Source: Polyangium fumosum
GTDB lineage: Bacteria; Myxococcota_A; Polyangia; Polyangiales; Polyangiaceae
Assembly (NCBI RefSeq): GCF_005144585.1
Contig: NZ_SSMQ01000008.1
Coordinates: forward strand, 62,001-126,000
DNA: 64,000 nucleotides
Direction of reading: 5' to 3'
Position 1 is the stretch's first letter, and every line of letters begins with the position of its first letter. A program made the translations under genes and the position numbers. The notes under the pieces are model-generated. The model was not told the DNA's origin. It saw nothing but the letters and a program-made list of their open reading frames with translations, and searched no databases. Positions 4,820 to 43,106 of the stretch are shown one piece after another.

Positions 4820-6217
4820 CTAGATCGATTTGTTCGGGCCGATCATGAGCTCTGGCCGCACGATCGCGTCGAAATCCGCACCCGTGAGCAGCCCGAGCGC
4901 GAGCGCCGCCTCGCGCAGCGTCGTCCCCTCGGCGTGCGCTTTTTTCGCGATACGCGCCGCCGCGTCGTAGCCGAGCCGCGGCGCGAGCGCGGTCACGAGC
5001 ATCAAGCTCTTCTGGAGGTTCTCGGTGATCCGGGCGCGGTTCGGCTCGATTCCGCGCGCGCAGTGCTCCTCGAACGAGGCCATCGCGTCGCCGAGCAGCC
5101 GGATCGACTGGAGCGTCGCGTGCAGGAGGAGGGGCTTCATCACGTTGAGCTCGAAGGTTCCGCCCGCGCCGGCGATCCCCACGGCGACGTCGTTCCCTTG
5201 CACCATGGCCGCGACCATGATCACGGCCTCGCTTTGCGTCGGGTTCACCTTGCCCGGCATGATCGAGCTGCCGGGCTCGTTCTCGGGGATCGTGATCTCG
5301 CCGAGCCCTGCGCGCGGCCCGCTCGACAACCACCGCACGTCGTTCGCGATCTTCGTCAGGCTCGCGGCGAGCGTCTTCAGCGCGCCGTGGGCGAACACGA
5401 TCGCCTCGTGCCCGGCGAGCGCCTGGAACTTGTTCGGCGCGGGCACGAACGGTAAGCCCGCAAGCGCGGCGATCTTCGCGACCGCGCGCGTGGCGAACTC
5501 CGGATGCGTGTTGAGCCCCGTCCCGACCGCGGTCCCGCCGAGCGCGAGCTCGTAGAGCGGCGAAAGCGCCCGCTCGATCATCCCCTTGGCTTGATCGAGC
5601 TGCGCGACCCAGCCCGAGATCTCCTGCCCGAGCGTGAGCGGCGTCGCGTCTTGCAGGTGCGTCCTTCCGATCTTCACGACCTCCGCGCACGCCTCGGCTT
5701 TCCGGGCGAGCGTCGCGCGCAGCGTGGCGAGCTTCGGCAGGAGGGCGGCGGTGATCTCGGACGCGATCGCGACGTGCATCGCGGTCGGAAACACGTCGTT
5801 CGAGCTTTGCCCGAGGTTCACGTGATCGTTCGGGTGGATCGGCTTCTTCGAGCCGAGCACGCCGCCGCTCGTCTCGATGGCGCGGTTCGCGATGACCTCG
5901 TTCGTGTTCATGTTCGTCTGCGTCCCGCTGCCGGTCTGCCAGATCGAGAGCGGAAAATGCGCGTCGTGCTGGCCTGCGATCACCTCGTCGGCGGCGGCCA
6001 CGATCCAGCGCGATTCCTGCGGCCCGAGCAGCCCGAGCTCGGCGTTCGTGAGCGCGGCGGCCTTCTTCACGAGGCCGAGAGCGCGGAGGAAGGGCCTCGG
6101 GAAGCGCTCGGCGCCGATCGCGAAGTGGTGCAGCGAGCGCTCTGTCTGCGCGCCCCAGTAGCGGGAGGCCTCGACCTCGATGGGTCCGAACGTGTCGGTC
6201 TCGATGCGCGTCGTCAT
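4820..6217 (-). CDS. fumC: Fumarate hydratase class II, 465 aa
   Basis: Interconverts fumarate and L-malate in the TCA cycle. It is a homotetrameric, iron-free enzyme of the aspartase/fumarase superfamily. The superfamily signature [11 protein letters not shown] is present in the flexible loop carrying the catalytic Ser. [19 protein letters not shown] (substrate site A) and the [12 protein letters not shown]-like segment [16 protein letters not shown] are also intact. The length is standard. The start ATG follows a TAAGCC hexamer by 6 bases without a ribosome-binding site, which suggests leaderless initiation. Aspartase is excluded by the conserved fumarase N-terminus [11 protein letters not shown]. 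Confidence 0.96.
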
Positions 6218-8034: not shown

Positions 8035-8967
8035 ATGAACGATTCCGTGGAAGAGAACGACAGCGTCGACCTGATCCTCCGCCACGTCTCGCACCGTTTT
8101 CCCGAGGACCTCGCGCGGGGCTTGCTTGGCGTGAAGGGCCCGCTCTCGGCCTCCGTGCTCGAAACGCAGGTTGCCTCGCGCCATCGCGAGCTCGACCGCA
8201 CGCTCGATGTCGAGGTGAAGGGCGAGCGGAGGCTGCTCCACCTCGAATGGCAGGGCGACATGCCTGCAAATATGCCGTTCCGGAGCTACGAGTACCAGTC
8301 GTTGATGGCGTTCGCCGTGGCGGCCGAGAGCCGCGCGGGCTCGCAGCTCGTGCCGCCGATCGAGAGCGTGGTCGTGCTCCTGGGAGGCCGAGCGGAGCCC
8401 TGGCCACCGCATGGTTCGTACCGCCTCTCGCCCCCAGATGCGCCGTTCTCGGGGGTGCATTTTCGTATCGAGCCCGTGTATCAGCGGACCGTCGCCGAGC
8501 TCGCGGCGCGCGGCCCCTTCTGGCTCATTTTTGCGCCCCTCGCGGGGGATGCGGACGAGCCCTGCATTCGGCGGGTCATGGAGGATCTCCGGGCGCAGGT
8601 ATCGCCCGAGGCATTCGAGGAGCTCGGGGTGGCGATGGCGGTCCTCGCGGAAGCGGATCAGCGAGGCCGTGATCTCCGAAGTGTGGTAAGAACGATGTTA
8701 CCCAGGGAGCTGGTGATGCAGAACTGGATTTACAAGGAAGGGTTGGAGGACGGTCGGCAGAAGGGTCGTGAGGAGGGCCTCCAGACGGGCCTCGCCCCGC
8801 TCGCGCATCAGTTCGAGCGCCGCCTCCGCCGCCCGCTCACACCGACCGAACGTGCGACGTTGGCCGAGCGGCTCCTTCAACAAGGCGCCGAGCGGCTGGG
8901 CGATGTCGTCCTCGATCTATCGCCCGAGGACCTCGCCACCTGGCTCGCAACGACGAACGGGCACTGA
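8035..8967 (+). CDS. Rpn/YhgA-family recombination-promoting nuclease-like protein, 310 aa
   Basis: A PD-(D/E)XK-fold protein of the Rpn/transposase-like group. The core appears as LDVEVKGERRLLHLEWQGD (about residues 60-78), with the D...E-x-Q pattern of the active site, followed by YEYQSLMAF. The C-terminal third carries the repetitive charged helix EGLEDGRQKGREEGLQTGL typical of these proteins, then a short HTH-like end. A strong ribosome-binding site, AGGAAGGAGG (8021-8030), fixes the start. The open frame upstream of 8035 is not used. Members are commonly multicopy and associated with genome plasticity. Only one is visible here. Confidence 0.75.
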   Translation: MNDSVEENDSVDLILRHVSHRFPEDLARGLLGVKGPLSASVLETQVASRHRELDRTLDVEVKGERRLLHLEWQGDMPANMPFRSYEYQSLMAFAVAAESRAGSQLVPPIESVVVLLGGRAEPWPPHGSYRLSPPDAPFSGVHFRIEPVYQRTVAELAARGPFWLIFAPLAGDADEPCIRRVMEDLRAQVSPEAFEELGVAMAVLAEADQRGRDLRSVVRTMLPRELVMQNWIYKEGLEDGRQKGREEGLQTGLAPLAHQFERRLRRPLTPTERATLAERLLQQGAERLGDVVLDLSPEDLATWLATTNGH

Positions 8968-39077: not shown

Positions 39078-39090
39078 GCGGCCGCCGTGT
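39060..39090 (+). repeat. Copy R1 of a dispersed repeat, at the mgtA 3' end
   Basis: This 31-base stretch spans the last codons and stop of mgtA. It matches 41886-41916 at 28 of 31 positions, all three differences being T/C transitions. Its core GGCYTGAGCGGCCGC also occurs at 43978. The rest of the 161-base gap to 39238 holds a lone TTGACA hexamer (39204-39209) without a convincing -10. Confidence 0.65.
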
Positions 39091-39238
39091 GCACGCGCGC
39101 GGGCTGCGGGGCGCATCCGTGGGAGAGCAAGACGAGGAGGAAGAAGCGCAGGGGGCTGGATTTCATGCCGTGTGCGCCTCGCAGGGTGTGGGCACGTTTC
39201 GTCTTGACAGCACGCGCGATCTTCGTGAGCAAGGGCGG

Positions 39239-39748
39239 ATGGATGCTGCCTCCCTCTATCTCGTCGGCCGGAAACTAGCCACGCTCGCCGAGCGCGCGAT
39301 GGCCGCTCCGGAGGGGGTGCCTGACGAGCCCTCGGTCGAGCACCTCGTGCTGCGTGCCGTGGCCGAGCGGCTCGTGCTGCGCGCCGTGATCGAGCGCCCG
39401 GGACTCACCGCGAGCGACCTCGTCACGCAGCTCTCGATCGCGCAAAGCCGCATCTCTCAGGTGATCGCCGAGCTCGAGCGCAAGGGATTCGTCCGCCGCT
39501 TCCCGGACGCGGACGACCGACGCAAGCAGCGCATCGAGGCCACCGTGCATTACAAGGAGACCGTCGAACAACGCATGACACGCAGCGTCGAGGAGGCGAT
39601 CGAACCCCTCCTAACCCACGCCACCGCGCGCGAGCGAGCCCGCGTGCTCGCGGCGCTGGAGCTGGTCCACGACCTCGTCCTGCGCGCAGGCGAGCAGGAC
39701 GAGGATGGCCCCGAGGCGCCCGAGAAGAAACCGCCGCGCCGGGGGTAG
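39239..39748 (+). CDS. MarR-family transcriptional regulator, 169 aa
   Basis: A dimeric winged-helix regulator. Helix-turn-helix LTASDLVTQLSIAQSRISQVIAELERKGFVRRF (about residues 60-93) is followed by the wing DDRRKQRIEATVHY, a typical MarR pattern, with dimerisation helices on both sides. It is in position to control the flavin/copper oxidase gene that follows 128 bases downstream. Two operator-like palindromes start at its stop codon, and one overlaps it. The ligand is unknown. Confidence 0.82.
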   Translation: MDAASLYLVGRKLATLAERAMAAPEGVPDEPSVEHLVLRAVAERLVLRAVIERPGLTASDLVTQLSIAQSRISQVIAELERKGFVRRFPDADDRRKQRIEATVHYKETVEQRMTRSVEEAIEPLLTHATARERARVLAALELVHDLVLRAGEQDEDGPEAPEKKPPRRG

Positions 39749-39776
39749 ATGAATCTGTGCAGATACATCTACCCCC
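39741..39776 (+). promoter_or_regulatory. Operator-like 36-bp palindrome O1, overlapping the marR stop codon
   Basis: Arms GGGGGTAGATGAATCTG (39741-39757) and CAGATACATCTACCCCC (39760-39776) are complementary at 16 of 17 positions over a 2-base spacer. A loop of 2 bases and absence of a following T tract argue for protein binding to DNA over termination, though a dual role is possible. Confidence 0.65.
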
Positions 39777-39803
39777 TAGATGAATCTTGACAGATATATC
39801 TAG
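39776..39803 (+). promoter_or_regulatory. Operator-like palindrome O2 overlapping the promoter of the monooxygenase gene
   Basis: CTAGATGAATCT (39776-39787) and AGATATATCTAG (39792-39803) form a 10/12-complementary inverted repeat over 4 bases. It shares the TAGATGNATCT half-site with O1, centred 31 bp away (about three helical turns, same face). A TTGACA -35 lies across its centre. Confidence 0.65.
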
Positions 39804-39814
39804 CCTGATACTGT
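39787..39814 (+). promoter_or_regulatory. Promoter of the CxxCH monooxygenase gene
   Basis: A perfect -35 TTGACA (39787-39792) and TACTGT (39809-39814) lie 16 bases apart. The -35 sits within operator O2. A bound repressor would block RNA polymerase directly. Confidence 0.55.
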
Positions 39815-39876
39815 CCATGCGTGCGAGCGGGCAGGCCGTTCGTCTTTGCTTGTCGCCCTCTGCGCATGGAGGAACC

Positions 39877-41163
39877 ATGAGACGTTCCATCGTCGTGTCC
39901 TCGTTCCTGGCTCTTGGCTGCGTCGCCGGATGCGGCGCCGCCGAGAATCCCGGCGGCTCGACCGGTCCCACGTATTACAAGGACATCGCGCCGCTCGTGA
40001 ACGAAGCATGCACGAGCTGCCACGTGGCCGGCGGAATCGCGCCGTTTTCCCTGACCGACGCCGAGACCGCGGCGACGATGGCGGGGGCCATGGCGGCCGC
40101 GACCGGGTCCCGCACGATGCCGCCGATGCCGGTCAACAACGACGGCTCGTGCCATACCTACAAGAATGCTCGGTGGCTGAGCGACGAGCAGATCGCGCTC
40201 TTCCAGCGCTGGTCCGAAGCCGGCGCGCCGCTCGGGGATCCGAAGGACGCGCCCCCGCCGCCCACCTTCGACACACCGAAGCTCGCGGGCGAGCTGGCGA
40301 GCTTCGACATCGGCCTCGATTACACGCCCGAGCCTCTTCCGGGCGAGCTCGACGAATACCGTTGCTTCGTCGTCGATCCGGGCATCACCGAGGACACGTT
40401 CATCACGGGGTATGACATCCAGCCCGGGGACGCGCGCGTCGTGCACCACGTATCGCTCTTTTACCTGGCCGACGACCAGGCCGACGCCGACGCGGAGGCC
40501 CTGGACGCCGCGGATCCCGGGCCGGGGTATCGATGCTTCGGCGCCGCCGGGGTGCAGAACTCCGTCCTTTACGGCGTATGGGTCCCGGGCAGCGGGGCGA
40601 CGATCCTTCCCGCGGGCACGGGGATCTTCCACGGCGCGGGCCGCAAGATCGCCCTTCAGGTGCATTACAACGTACCACTGACGGGAGGACCCTTCTCCGA
40701 CCGCTCGAAGGTGACGTACCAGCTCGAAAAGGATCCCTCCCTGACGCGGGCGTACTTGCTACCGGTCGGGAGCTTTCAGTTCTCGCTGCCCCCCAAGGCC
40801 GCAAAAGCCAATGTCAGCGTCGATCTGCCGCTGGAGCAACTCGGGTGGTACGGCGGCGTGGATGCCTCCGGCGGCATTCGCGTCTACGGCGCGATGCCGC
40901 ACATGCACGTGATTGGCCGGGAGCAGCGCACCTCCCTGAAACGAGAGAGCGGTGAAGAGTGCCTCACCGAGGTCGACCGCTGGAATTTCCACTGGCAAGA
41001 CCTGTGGTGGTACGAGACCCCGATCGACGTGGCCCCTGGGAACACCTTCGGGATCTCGTGCGACTTCGACACGCGGGGGCGCACGACGCCGACGACGTGG
41101 GGCGAAGGGACGAATGACGAGATGTGCACGAACATCCTGTACGCGACGCTGACCGGGAAGTAG
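39877..41163 (+). CDS. Lipoprotein with heme-c site and ascorbate-type copper monooxygenase domain, 428 aa
   Basis: The signal peptide ends LALGCVAGC. Residues about 30-90 contain EACTSCHVAG, a CxxCH heme-c attachment site. The rest resembles type II copper, ascorbate-dependent monooxygenases (PHM/DBH family): RVVHHVSLFYL (copper A His pair), GRKIALQVHYN and GAMPHMHVIGREQRTSL (copper B type His-x-Met-His). The substrate is unknown. The ATG 39877 follows GGAGG. Expression is probably controlled by the adjacent MarR regulator through the O1/O2 sites. Confidence 0.82.
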   Translation: MRRSIVVSSFLALGCVAGCGAAENPGGSTGPTYYKDIAPLVNEACTSCHVAGGIAPFSLTDAETAATMAGAMAAATGSRTMPPMPVNNDGSCHTYKNARWLSDEQIALFQRWSEAGAPLGDPKDAPPPPTFDTPKLAGELASFDIGLDYTPEPLPGELDEYRCFVVDPGITEDTFITGYDIQPGDARVVHHVSLFYLADDQADADAEALDAADPGPGYRCFGAAGVQNSVLYGVWVPGSGATILPAGTGIFHGAGRKIALQVHYNVPLTGGPFSDRSKVTYQLEKDPSLTRAYLLPVGSFQFSLPPKAAKANVSVDLPLEQLGWYGGVDASGGIRVYGAMPHMHVIGREQRTSLKRESGEECLTEVDRWNFHWQDLWWYETPIDVAPGNTFGISCDFDTRGRTTPTTWGEGTNDEMCTNILYATLTGK

Positions 41164-41211
41164 CACCATGCCCTGGGCCGGGAAGCCCCTCGGCAGCGGC
41201 GCGAAGCGCGT

Positions 41212-41850
41212 TCACGCGCGCAGCCGGCTGTCCTCCTCCATGGCCTCGTAAAGCGAATAGGGAAGCGTGGGCCGTCGGCCGATGACCTGGTTCCACGCCT
41301 CCCGCATCTGCCGCGCGCAGCGCGCGGGCGGCATACGCCCGACGCCTGTCGCGAGCCCCGGACAGAGGACCGACCGAATGGGCTCGGCCGCGCTCTCGTT
41401 GTGCGAGAGCACCAAGAGCAGCGCGGCGCGCATCGCGAGATACGCATGGACCGTGTCGCTCACGTCCGCGGGGACGCGCATGGTGGGCGCGCTGATGCAC
41501 CAGGGAATGGCGGCGTGTCCCGTCGGAACGAGGATAGCCTGGCCCACGGGAAGCTCACCGCCGAACCGCGTCGCGAGCGTCGCCCGCAATCGAGCTTCGA
41601 GCTCGGGACCGAGGTGGTGCGTGTACACCGCGTCGATGCCGCCATCCATGAAGCCAAAGCTATTGGCGGGGCTCACCACGGCGTCCGCGTGTACGTCGAT
41701 GGGATCCTTCGCCGTGACCGGGCCGGGTCGATCGAAGAAAATATCCCCGTACGAGACGGTGACGCCCGGCACGCCGGCGAACTCCTCTCGCCAGGCCTGC
41801 ACGAGGGGTTCGCTCAAGGATCGGAGGTGAATGGCGAGGGTGAGGGTCAT
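41212..41850 (-). CDS. Macro-domain (ADP-ribose binding) protein, 212 aa
   Basis: Probably binds or hydrolyses ADP-ribose or derived nucleotides. The macro signature VVSPANSFGFMDGGID (about residues 60-75) and the phosphate-binding loop GLATGVGRMPP (about 165-175) are intact, with VPTGHA and the AMRAALLLV strand between. No other domain is present, and no signal peptide. Macro domains in accessory islands are often linked to ADP-ribosylation-based immunity or toxin reversal. This link is an inference from context. Confidence 0.85.
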   Translation of the reverse strand: MTLTLAIHLRSLSEPLVQAWREEFAGVPGVTVSYGDIFFDRPGPVTAKDPIDVHADAVVSPANSFGFMDGGIDAVYTHHLGPELEARLRATLATRFGGELPVGQAILVPTGHAAIPWCISAPTMRVPADVSDTVHAYLAMRAALLLVLSHNESAAEPIRSVLCPGLATGVGRMPPARCARQMREAWNQVIGRRPTLPYSLYEAMEEDSRLRA

Positions 41851-41885
41851 GGGTGGAACGAGGAGGGGAGCGGTGGTGTGATGGG

Positions 41886-41928
41886 CGGTCCGGGTGGGCC
41901 TGAGCGGCCGCCGCGTCCCGCGGGGATT
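41886..41928 (+). repeat. Copy R2 of a dispersed repeat, downstream of the ankyrin gene
   Basis: The left 31 bases (41886-41916) match R1 at the mgtA end. The 32 bases 41897-41928 match R3 in the TPR gene end (30 of 32). On the minus strand, R2 read in frame gives RDAAAAQA, the same residues as the TPR protein C-terminus. R2 therefore joins sequence shared with both other copies. Confidence 0.7.
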
Positions 41929-41949
41929 CCATGCGGTATCAGAATGCGA

Positions 41950-42885
41950 TCAAGTTTTCCGTCCCTCGTCAAGCATCTTCCACGTGTGAGCACTATGTCC
42001 ACTGGAGTTTACCTGATGGGGATCTGCTCCGAGATTCAGCAGGGCATCAAAGAGCTTCGGATCGTGAACCGCATGCATGAGCGCCGTGTTTCCCTGGTGA
42101 TTGGCCTCGTTCACACGCGCCCCATGCCGAACGAGCAGCGCGGCAGCTCGAGGCGTCGATGCGAGGAAGAGCGCCGTGAGCCCTTTTTCGTCCCTCGCAT
42201 TGGGATCGCCGCCTTTCAACAGAACAAGCTCCGCCAGCGCTTCGAGGGTCACGTTCTCCGGACGGGAGGGGGGATCGGCACGGATCTGCTCGATCAGGTG
42301 ATGAAGAGGCGTTCGTCCGATGGCGTCACGAGCGTGCACCAGCGTCGGTTCTTCTCGAATCAATCGGGCGAGAATCTCGACGTCGCTCGGCTCAGCGCGA
42401 AAGGCCCTCCTGACGAGCTTGGTCAAGAAACGCCGTAGCGACCGAGCCCGATCCGGCACGTGCGTGATTTGCGTCGCGACCGCTTCCGCATACGTCATCG
42501 GACCTTCACAGCCGTATCGCTCGATCCACCGGGCCAGATGCTCCGGCGTCGATTCGCTTACCCGTTCAGCGCTTCGAACGACACTCTCCACCAGGTCGAC
42601 CTCGAATTCGACGAACGGAAGAATGACGTTGCCCCCGACGTCGAGCTCGTCGAAGAGAGCCGGGCACTGGATGCAATGCGTGTAGATGGCGATTCGGCCG
42701 GTCAATGGCAGCTCGATTCGTTCTCCCTCCAAGCCGGGTGTTCCGTCGAGCCTCGCAGCCAAGGTCCAGGAGCCCATGGTGCAGCCGAGATCTTGCGTCT
42801 GCCACGCGGCCTGCATGAGGTCGTGTCCTTCGGAGCATGTCCAGCCCTGGAGCCCCTTCACGCGCACCGTATCGTAGAGTCCCAT
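41950..42885 (-). CDS. Ankyrin-repeat protein with N-terminal Cys module, 311 aa
   Basis: The N-terminal 75 residues start MGLYDTVRV and contain WTCSEGHD, AAWQTQDLGCTMG and YTHCIQC, a pattern like small Zn-binding (Cys/His) proteins found near phages and islands. A middle helical segment leads to three to four ankyrin repeats (about residues 195-305): GRTPLHHLI, EKGLTALFLAS, HQGNTALMHAV, GHSAHTWKML. The upstream region is a 90% copy of the AAA-ATPase gene's promoter (42893-42945). Function unknown. Confidence 0.8.
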   Translation of the reverse strand: MGLYDTVRVKGLQGWTCSEGHDLMQAAWQTQDLGCTMGSWTLAARLDGTPGLEGERIELPLTGRIAIYTHCIQCPALFDELDVGGNVILPFVEFEVDLVESVVRSAERVSESTPEHLARWIERYGCEGPMTYAEAVATQITHVPDRARSLRRFLTKLVRRAFRAEPSDVEILARLIREEPTLVHARDAIGRTPLHHLIEQIRADPPSRPENVTLEALAELVLLKGGDPNARDEKGLTALFLASTPRAAALLVRHGARVNEANHQGNTALMHAVHDPKLFDALLNLGADPHQVNSSGHSAHTWKMLDEGRKT

Positions 42886-42892
42886 GACGTCG

Positions 42893-42945
42893 CCCGCACC
42901 CTATCATGCGCCGACCGGCAGGTCCGCCTCGGCGCCGCGCAAAAC
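42893..42945 (-). promoter_or_regulatory. Promoter copy P1 shared with the AAA/TPR cassette
   Basis: These 53 bases match 46781-46833 at 48 positions. The shared TAGGGT -10-like box (42898-42903) lies 12 bases before the ankyrin ATG, whereas in the AAA gene it lies 7 bases before. The remaining 161 bases of this gap (to 43106) show nothing recognisable. Confidence 0.65.
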
Positions 42946-43106
42946 GTGCCAGGACGAACCACGCGCTCTGTGCCTTCATGATTTCCTCCCCCAGGGCACG
43001 ATGATGCCCTCCATTCTCGTCGGCCGCGCGGATGCAATCCATGGAGAGGACGGATGGGCGCACGCGTGGCTGTACCCGATCCGACCGCCCTCCAGGATTC
43101 GCGCGG

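Follow-up and report, generated by a model that had tools for sequence, protein, structure and literature searches.

What controls the copper monooxygenase gene that directly follows a marR-family gene in Polyangium fumosum, and are the two palindromes lying between these genes the sites of that control? The locus was analysed within a 64-kb stretch of the genome, referred to here as the window, whose numbering is used throughout. Taken as a whole, the locus is best explained by a local MarR repressor switch acting on the monooxygenase promoter, a reading that we consider probable from sequence comparison. The features on which the discussion depends are as follows.

39185-41167, plus strand: two-gene unit (marR, O1, O2, monooxygenase), delimited by a blastn match to Polyangium sp. 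15x6
39204-39209, plus strand: TTGACA, possible -35 box of marR, lying 35 bp ahead of the start of the gene, with no convincing -10
39239-39748, plus strand: marR-family regulator gene, 169 aa, Pfam MarR models above cut-off
39741-39776, no strand assigned: putative operator O1, overlapping the marR stop codon, also present in Polyangium sp. 15x6
39776-39803, no strand assigned: putative operator O2, whose core is a perfect palindrome in Polyangium sp. 15x6
39787-39792, plus strand: -35 box TTGACA, full consensus, identical in Polyangium sp. 15x6
39809-39814, plus strand: proposed -10 TACTGT, chosen by eye, 3/6 consensus positions, spacer 16 bp; TACTCT in Polyangium sp. 15x6
39826-39876, plus strand: 5' leader of the mRNA for the monooxygenase, matching that of Polyangium sp. 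15x6 at 49 of 51 positions
39877-41163, plus strand: PHM/DBH-like copper type II monooxygenase gene, 428 aa

The regulator and the monooxygenase

The marR gene product is recognised by two Pfam models, PF01047 (42.7 bits, cut-off 24.6) and PF12802 (42.1 bits, cut-off 27). None of its 19 matches to named MarR subfamilies of NCBIfam reached the cut-off of the respective model, the best scoring 29.3 bits against a required 200. MarR-family chains in the PDB match the protein by sequence as far as residue 149, and its AlphaFold model contains predicted helices but is poor (mean pLDDT 50). OhrR, a member of the family, senses its signal through thiols. The protein encoded here contains no cysteine, which makes OhrR-like thiol-based sensing unlikely, and a small-molecule ligand is assumed by default to be the effector.

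The monooxygenase begins with a lipoprotein-like start and a CxxCH haem-c site, both recognised by eye. Its C-terminal domain matches PF03712 (Cu2_monoox_C) with 51.4 bits (cut-off 23), and the N-terminal domain model PF01082 scores 20.3 bits, under its cut-off of 30. Profile searches matched DBH (5.5e-23) and PHM (1.8e-21), and the best 31 Foldseek matches listed for the structural model (pLDDT 86.8) were all DBH or PHM; the protein thus has the two-domain PHM/DBH core. Residues H190, H191, H263, H342, H344 and M416, which we take to be the copper ligands of PHM (HH, H, HxH, M), are invariant in all 25 aligned sequences, namely that of the window and those from 24 out of 29 other loci. The remaining five (L010, L014, L015, L031 and L032) were left out because of an in-frame TGA, which in each case is simply the codon that terminates the gene, at the far end of the match. 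The additional CxxCH haem-c site suggests an electron route other than ascorbate. A limited literature search found no substrate named for bacterial DBH/PHM relatives with a haem-c domain.

Palindromes and promoter between the two genes

An earlier note on this DNA had described two palindromes with centres 31 bp apart and arms complementary at 16/17 (O1) and 10/12 (O2) positions, and all of these values were recovered on remeasurement. O1 has two arms of 17 nt (39741-39757 and 39760-39776) separated by a 2-nt gap, with its centre at 39758.5 and the core GATGAATCT-GTGC-AGATACATC at 39748-39769. The arms of O2 are 12 nt long (39776-39787 and 39792-39803) and enclose a 4-nt gap, and its core, GATGAATCT-TGAC-AGATATATC, occupies 39779-39800. 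Together the two sites form a 29-nt direct repeat of 83% identity, the second copy being offset by 31 bp, and the G+C content of 39746-39803 is 38%, compared with 69% for the whole window. The half-site said to be common to both palindromes, TAGATGNATCT, is indeed present in three of the four arms; the description fails for the right arm of O2, which reads TAGATATATCT. The reported overlap of O1 with the end of marR is accounted for by the TAG at 39746-39748. The relation of O2 to the TTGACA box is closer than the overlap originally described, since the centre of its dyad, at 39789.5, is the same point as the middle of the hexamer.

A consensus scan called no sigma-70 promoter ahead of the monooxygenase gene, and the -10 is poor. 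If the -10 chosen by eye is accepted, transcription is proposed to start near 39821, which would place O2 near -32 and O1 near -62. The leader downstream carries a GGAGG ribosome site at 39868-39872.

The hexamer TTGACA occurs twice in the 64-kb window, once ahead of marR at a distance of 35 bp and once at O2, and on the minus strand it does not occur at all, about 4.5 copies per strand being expected. Were the copy at 39204-39209 used as a -35 box, the marR message would have almost no leader.

The level of chance was estimated from 200 dinucleotide shuffles of the window. Palindromes of O1 grade (at least 16/17, gap 0-8) appeared in 8 of them. A 29-nt repeat of at least 24/29 identical positions at a spacing of 29-60 appeared in 2, a statistic to which repeats other than O1 and O2 contribute, as four spacings qualify in the real window. 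A joint statistic for the pair was zero in the real window too, because the inner arms of O2 reach only 7/9, and is uninformative. Judged from the window alone, the pair would be a rare chance event, though not an extremely rare one.

Throughout the 12.98-Mb genome, a 26-bp motif with up to three mismatches is found only at O1 and O2; about 0.03 occurrences would be expected from base composition, but the pattern was derived from these two sites themselves. The earlier note expected a genome search to return few and coherent targets, and with this strict motif the search gives one target promoter. Autoregulation is common in the MarR family. Here the genome-wide search with up to three mismatches places no operator before marR, and with O1 and O2 lying behind the gene nothing points to autoregulation.

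A looser 22-bp core yields five sites with up to two mismatches, O1 and O2 included, against about 0.4 expected, and 17 sites with up to three mismatches against about 7 expected by base composition; the reversed pattern, used as a control, gives two sites with up to three. Beyond O1 and O2 these are three places with two mismatches and twelve with three, and as such look-alikes exceed both controls, further weak targets are possible. By eye, the 2-mismatch places lie before a LysM/M23-type gene (L038), in a transposase-like frame (L039) and near a LysR-type frame (L040). They share no common theme and were set aside, without proof, as unrelated rather than counted as a wider regulon. The look-alike at L039, GACGAATCGTGATAGATTCATC (G000:C167:224407-224428), is situated at the start of the transposase-like frame as judged by eye, and the same letters are found once in genome G004 and twice in G001.

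The unit in a second Polyangium species

Comparison with Polyangium sp. 15x6 (G005) produced one blastn match of 91% identity over 1,983 columns, extending from a point 54 bp ahead of the start codon of marR to 4 bp past the stop codon of the enzyme gene. The monooxygenase genes are 93% identical. Nothing in the remainder of the 16-kb locus of this species (L035) aligns with the window. There the unit adjoins a divergent glutaredoxin gene, and its edge lies 7 or 8 bp from the point where the alignment with the glutaredoxin blocks of five other Polyangium genomes starts; in those five genomes the unit is absent from the 0.6 to 1.5 kb before the glutaredoxin gene. At the place that the unit occupies in the window, G001, G003, G004 and G005 have no such unit where their sequence continues from the ATPase gene; in G002 none was seen in the 1,052 bp remaining on the contig. 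Judged from these alignments, marR, both sites and the enzyme gene are one unit found at two unrelated chromosomal places.

Several observations concern the surroundings of the unit. A variable junction follows the P-type ATPase gene (identified by eye); it corresponds to 39087-43103 of the window and to loci L073-L078, and in the window it holds the unit together with macro-domain and ankyrin genes. It is reduced to about 36 bp in G003, holds a small secreted-looking frame (by eye) in G004, and has other content in G005 and G001. Immediately before the unit, positions 39083-39141 match contig C122 of G005 with 81% identity and on the minus strand resemble, by eye, the start of a lipoprotein gene; this segment is possibly a remnant at the unit's entry point. 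In L035, positions 8494-8813 belong to a dispersed repeat of about 320 bp with at least dozens of copies in Polyangium genomes, and a diverged inverted partner (74%) is located at 5853-6127, across the unit and the glutaredoxin gene. This repeat has no match in the window.

Close relatives of marR were found in 2 of 59 relatives searched at 1e-10 (the window's genome included) and in 3 of 108 genomes of the family at 1e-8, the third being a weak match of 38 bits. At 1e-12 they were found in 2 of 183 genomes of the order and, in a sample of 377 taken across the phylum, again in 2. Apart from the weak third match, the genomes concerned are in all four sets the window's own and G005. No more than 61, 33, 19 and 9 candidates, respectively, were scored in any one genome of these sets, which overlap, so that distant orthologues could have escaped notice. 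A search of genome contigs with two short peptides returned one locus.

The half-sites are better preserved between the two species than the bases around them. Within the four 9-bp half-sites 2 of 36 positions have changed, as against 16 of 32, gaps counted, in the adjoining non-coding blocks (Fisher p 5e-5, with blocks picked after the alignment had been seen). These blocks are the spacer of O1, the bases separating the two sites, those following O2, and 39815-39825; the O2 spacer within the -35 box (0/4 changed) and the -10 (1/6) were set aside. Both half-site changes contribute to making O2 of Polyangium sp. 15x6 a perfect palindrome, GATGTATCT-TGAC-AGATACATC. The centres of the two sites are 30 bp apart in that species, one less than in the window. 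Conservation of this degree is not peculiar to the half-sites: the marR coding sequence has changed at 47 of 507 positions, a rate not clearly above theirs, and the leader (39826-39876) has changed at 2 of 51. As the unit is present in two genomes only, the conservation amounts to a single comparison. The leader (49/51 identical) is itself better kept than the marR gene (460/507).

The distribution of the sites follows that of the regulator gene. In the six Polyangium genomes searched for the core with up to two mismatches, sites with no or one mismatch occur only at the unit, in the two genomes that carry marR. The four genomes devoid of a close marR relative yielded nothing better than places with two mismatches, of which each has one or two. 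The case that the earlier note named as contrary to its reading, sites retained in relatives that have no MarR gene, was thus looked for in Polyangium genomes and not seen.

A similar picture was obtained for the enzyme family. Upstream regions were scanned at 30 of the 39 listed monooxygenase homologues over the 1500 bases before the match (560 for L024 and 1085 for L014), the start of the match not always being the start of the gene. Both members of the unit have a core site without mismatch in this span, and in the 28 other loci the mismatches in the best match number from 5 to 7. Among the outside homologues, four of the five closest ones (L008, L009, L021 and L022) resemble the marR locus in having a regulator gene beside a related enzyme gene. 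Unlike the unit, they adjoin a divergent AraC-type regulator with Arabinose_bd and HTH_18 domains, and their 1500 upstream bases contain no core within four mismatches. At the fifth, L007, no AraC-type gene was recognised by eye in 1.5 kb.

Proposed regulation of the monooxygenase promoter

MarR dimers, we infer, would bind O2 and O1. A dimer on O2, centred on the -35 box, would block RNA polymerase sterically, and O1, situated a repeat length farther upstream near -62, would serve as a second dimer site aiding the occupancy of O2; with its longer palindrome it may be the stronger of the two. A small molecule, plausibly the substrate of the enzyme or a related compound, would release the MarR protein, whereupon the exported copper-haem monooxygenase would be made. 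The result would be a self-contained local switch of one regulator, one promoter and one enzyme. Repression by the MarR protein is supported by its Pfam assignment, by the sites travelling with marR and the enzyme gene, by the retention of the half-sites, and by the lack of any core site within one mismatch in the four congeners without a close marR. The earlier note had proposed cooperative repression. Its repression part is thus favoured by the comparison between species, and cooperativity on one face of the helix is compatible with the spacing of 31 bp in one species and 30 bp in the other. Such a spacing is close to three helical turns, which fits cooperativity without proving it, and we offer this component as a guess.

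A more elaborate version appears doubtful. According to it, the unit was transferred intact from one chromosomal position to another within Polyangium and placed under MarR control an enzyme family whose nearest relatives adjoin AraC-type regulators, so that the monooxygenase changed its regulator. Dimers could in addition alternate between O1/O2 and the two inner half-sites, giving a graded or activating switch; this inner pair, formed by the right half of O1 and the left half of O2, is 10/10 complementary in Polyangium sp. 15x6.

Returning to the simple repressor switch, adjacency is no proof of control, and O1 and O2 lie behind marR, not before it. Another cellular regulator might therefore bind them, leaving the neighbouring MarR protein to control something else. 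We regard this as unlikely, given that core sites with at most one mismatch are confined to the two of six Polyangium genomes that have marR and that genes and sites occur together at two unrelated loci; a distant regulator with this single target would be needed in both species.

It is decidedly improbable that the MarR protein is instead an activator, or a dual regulator for which O1 is the activating position and O2, on the -35 box, shuts the promoter at high protein levels. The centre of O1 lies at about -62 from the deduced start, presumably the distance of a class I activator, but the position of that start depends on the proposed -10. The TTGACA box is a full-consensus -35, which would make an activator less necessary. 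In the window O2 has lower symmetry than O1, yet its half-sites are kept as well and are perfectly symmetrical in Polyangium sp. 15x6. Some members of the MarR family do activate transcription, as stated in the CouR paper (PMC4737184).

The RNA of O1 folds strongly at the marR stop codon (96 nt, MFE -32.3, z -4.0), as would a hairpin that ends or stabilises the marR message. O1 was nevertheless rejected as a terminator, as no U run follows it, the scan calls no terminator there and the fold is different in Polyangium sp. 15x6, where the lowest-energy structure (z -4.1) pairs the right half of O1 with the left half of O2 and the left half of O1 with the right half of O2. Since the lowest-energy folds differ between the two species, the shape of the RNA is not the conserved feature, and O2 carries the same half-sites at a promoter; a role of O1 as an RNA element is very unlikely. 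Chance palindromes or a functionless repeat element are scarcely credible despite the shuffles that yielded O1-grade palindromes, because two copies with near-identical half-sites are present, one of them centred on a -35 box, both are retained in a second species in which the adjoining bases differ, and the genome holds no further copy within three mismatches, as a dispersed repeat would.

Paired palindromes near a promoter are reportedly also bound by MexR, a MarR-family protein, at mexA-mexR of Pseudomonas aeruginosa, which is said to be a divergent, autoregulated efflux operon, unlike the present unit. SCO3205 of Streptomyces coelicolor, another MarR-family regulator, is described (PMC3737563) as having two operators upstream of SCO3205, which resemble O1 and O2 in being two related sites within one intergenic region; they differ in lying ahead of the regulator's own gene and in their sequence, TTnAAnnnTCAA. 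The boxes of CouR of Rhodococcus jostii (MarR family; PMC4737184) cover the predicted -35 in four promoters and are thus comparable to O2, with an inverted repeat over a TTGACA-type -35 of enzyme promoters and a MarR-type protein. CouR has one short box per promoter, and one box is common to the divergent couR and couN genes, in contrast to the present locus, where a single promoter following marR has two longer sites. For DesR of Sphingobium sp. SYK-6 (MarR type; PMC6888825), the inverted repeat IR-M lies over the -35 region of the catabolic gene ligM, with repression lifted by the substrate, a likeness to O2; its repeats, unlike O1 and O2, are of 15 bp and spread across several promoters, including that of its own gene. 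PheR was dropped from the comparison, being of the IclR type.

The type of switch is therefore ordinary, MarR sites on -35 boxes and paired MarR operators being already in print. The locus is mildly interesting as a compact unit at unrelated places in two species, and as a case in which the nearest relatives of the enzyme adjoin another kind of regulator. It would offer a small, clean example of regulator, operators and target occurring together at unrelated places. Compounds that lift the MarR protein off O1 and O2 would be candidate substrates or products of the monooxygenase, and a dedicated MarR switch on one promoter may provide a way in to the substrate of the DBH/PHM-like haem-c enzymes.
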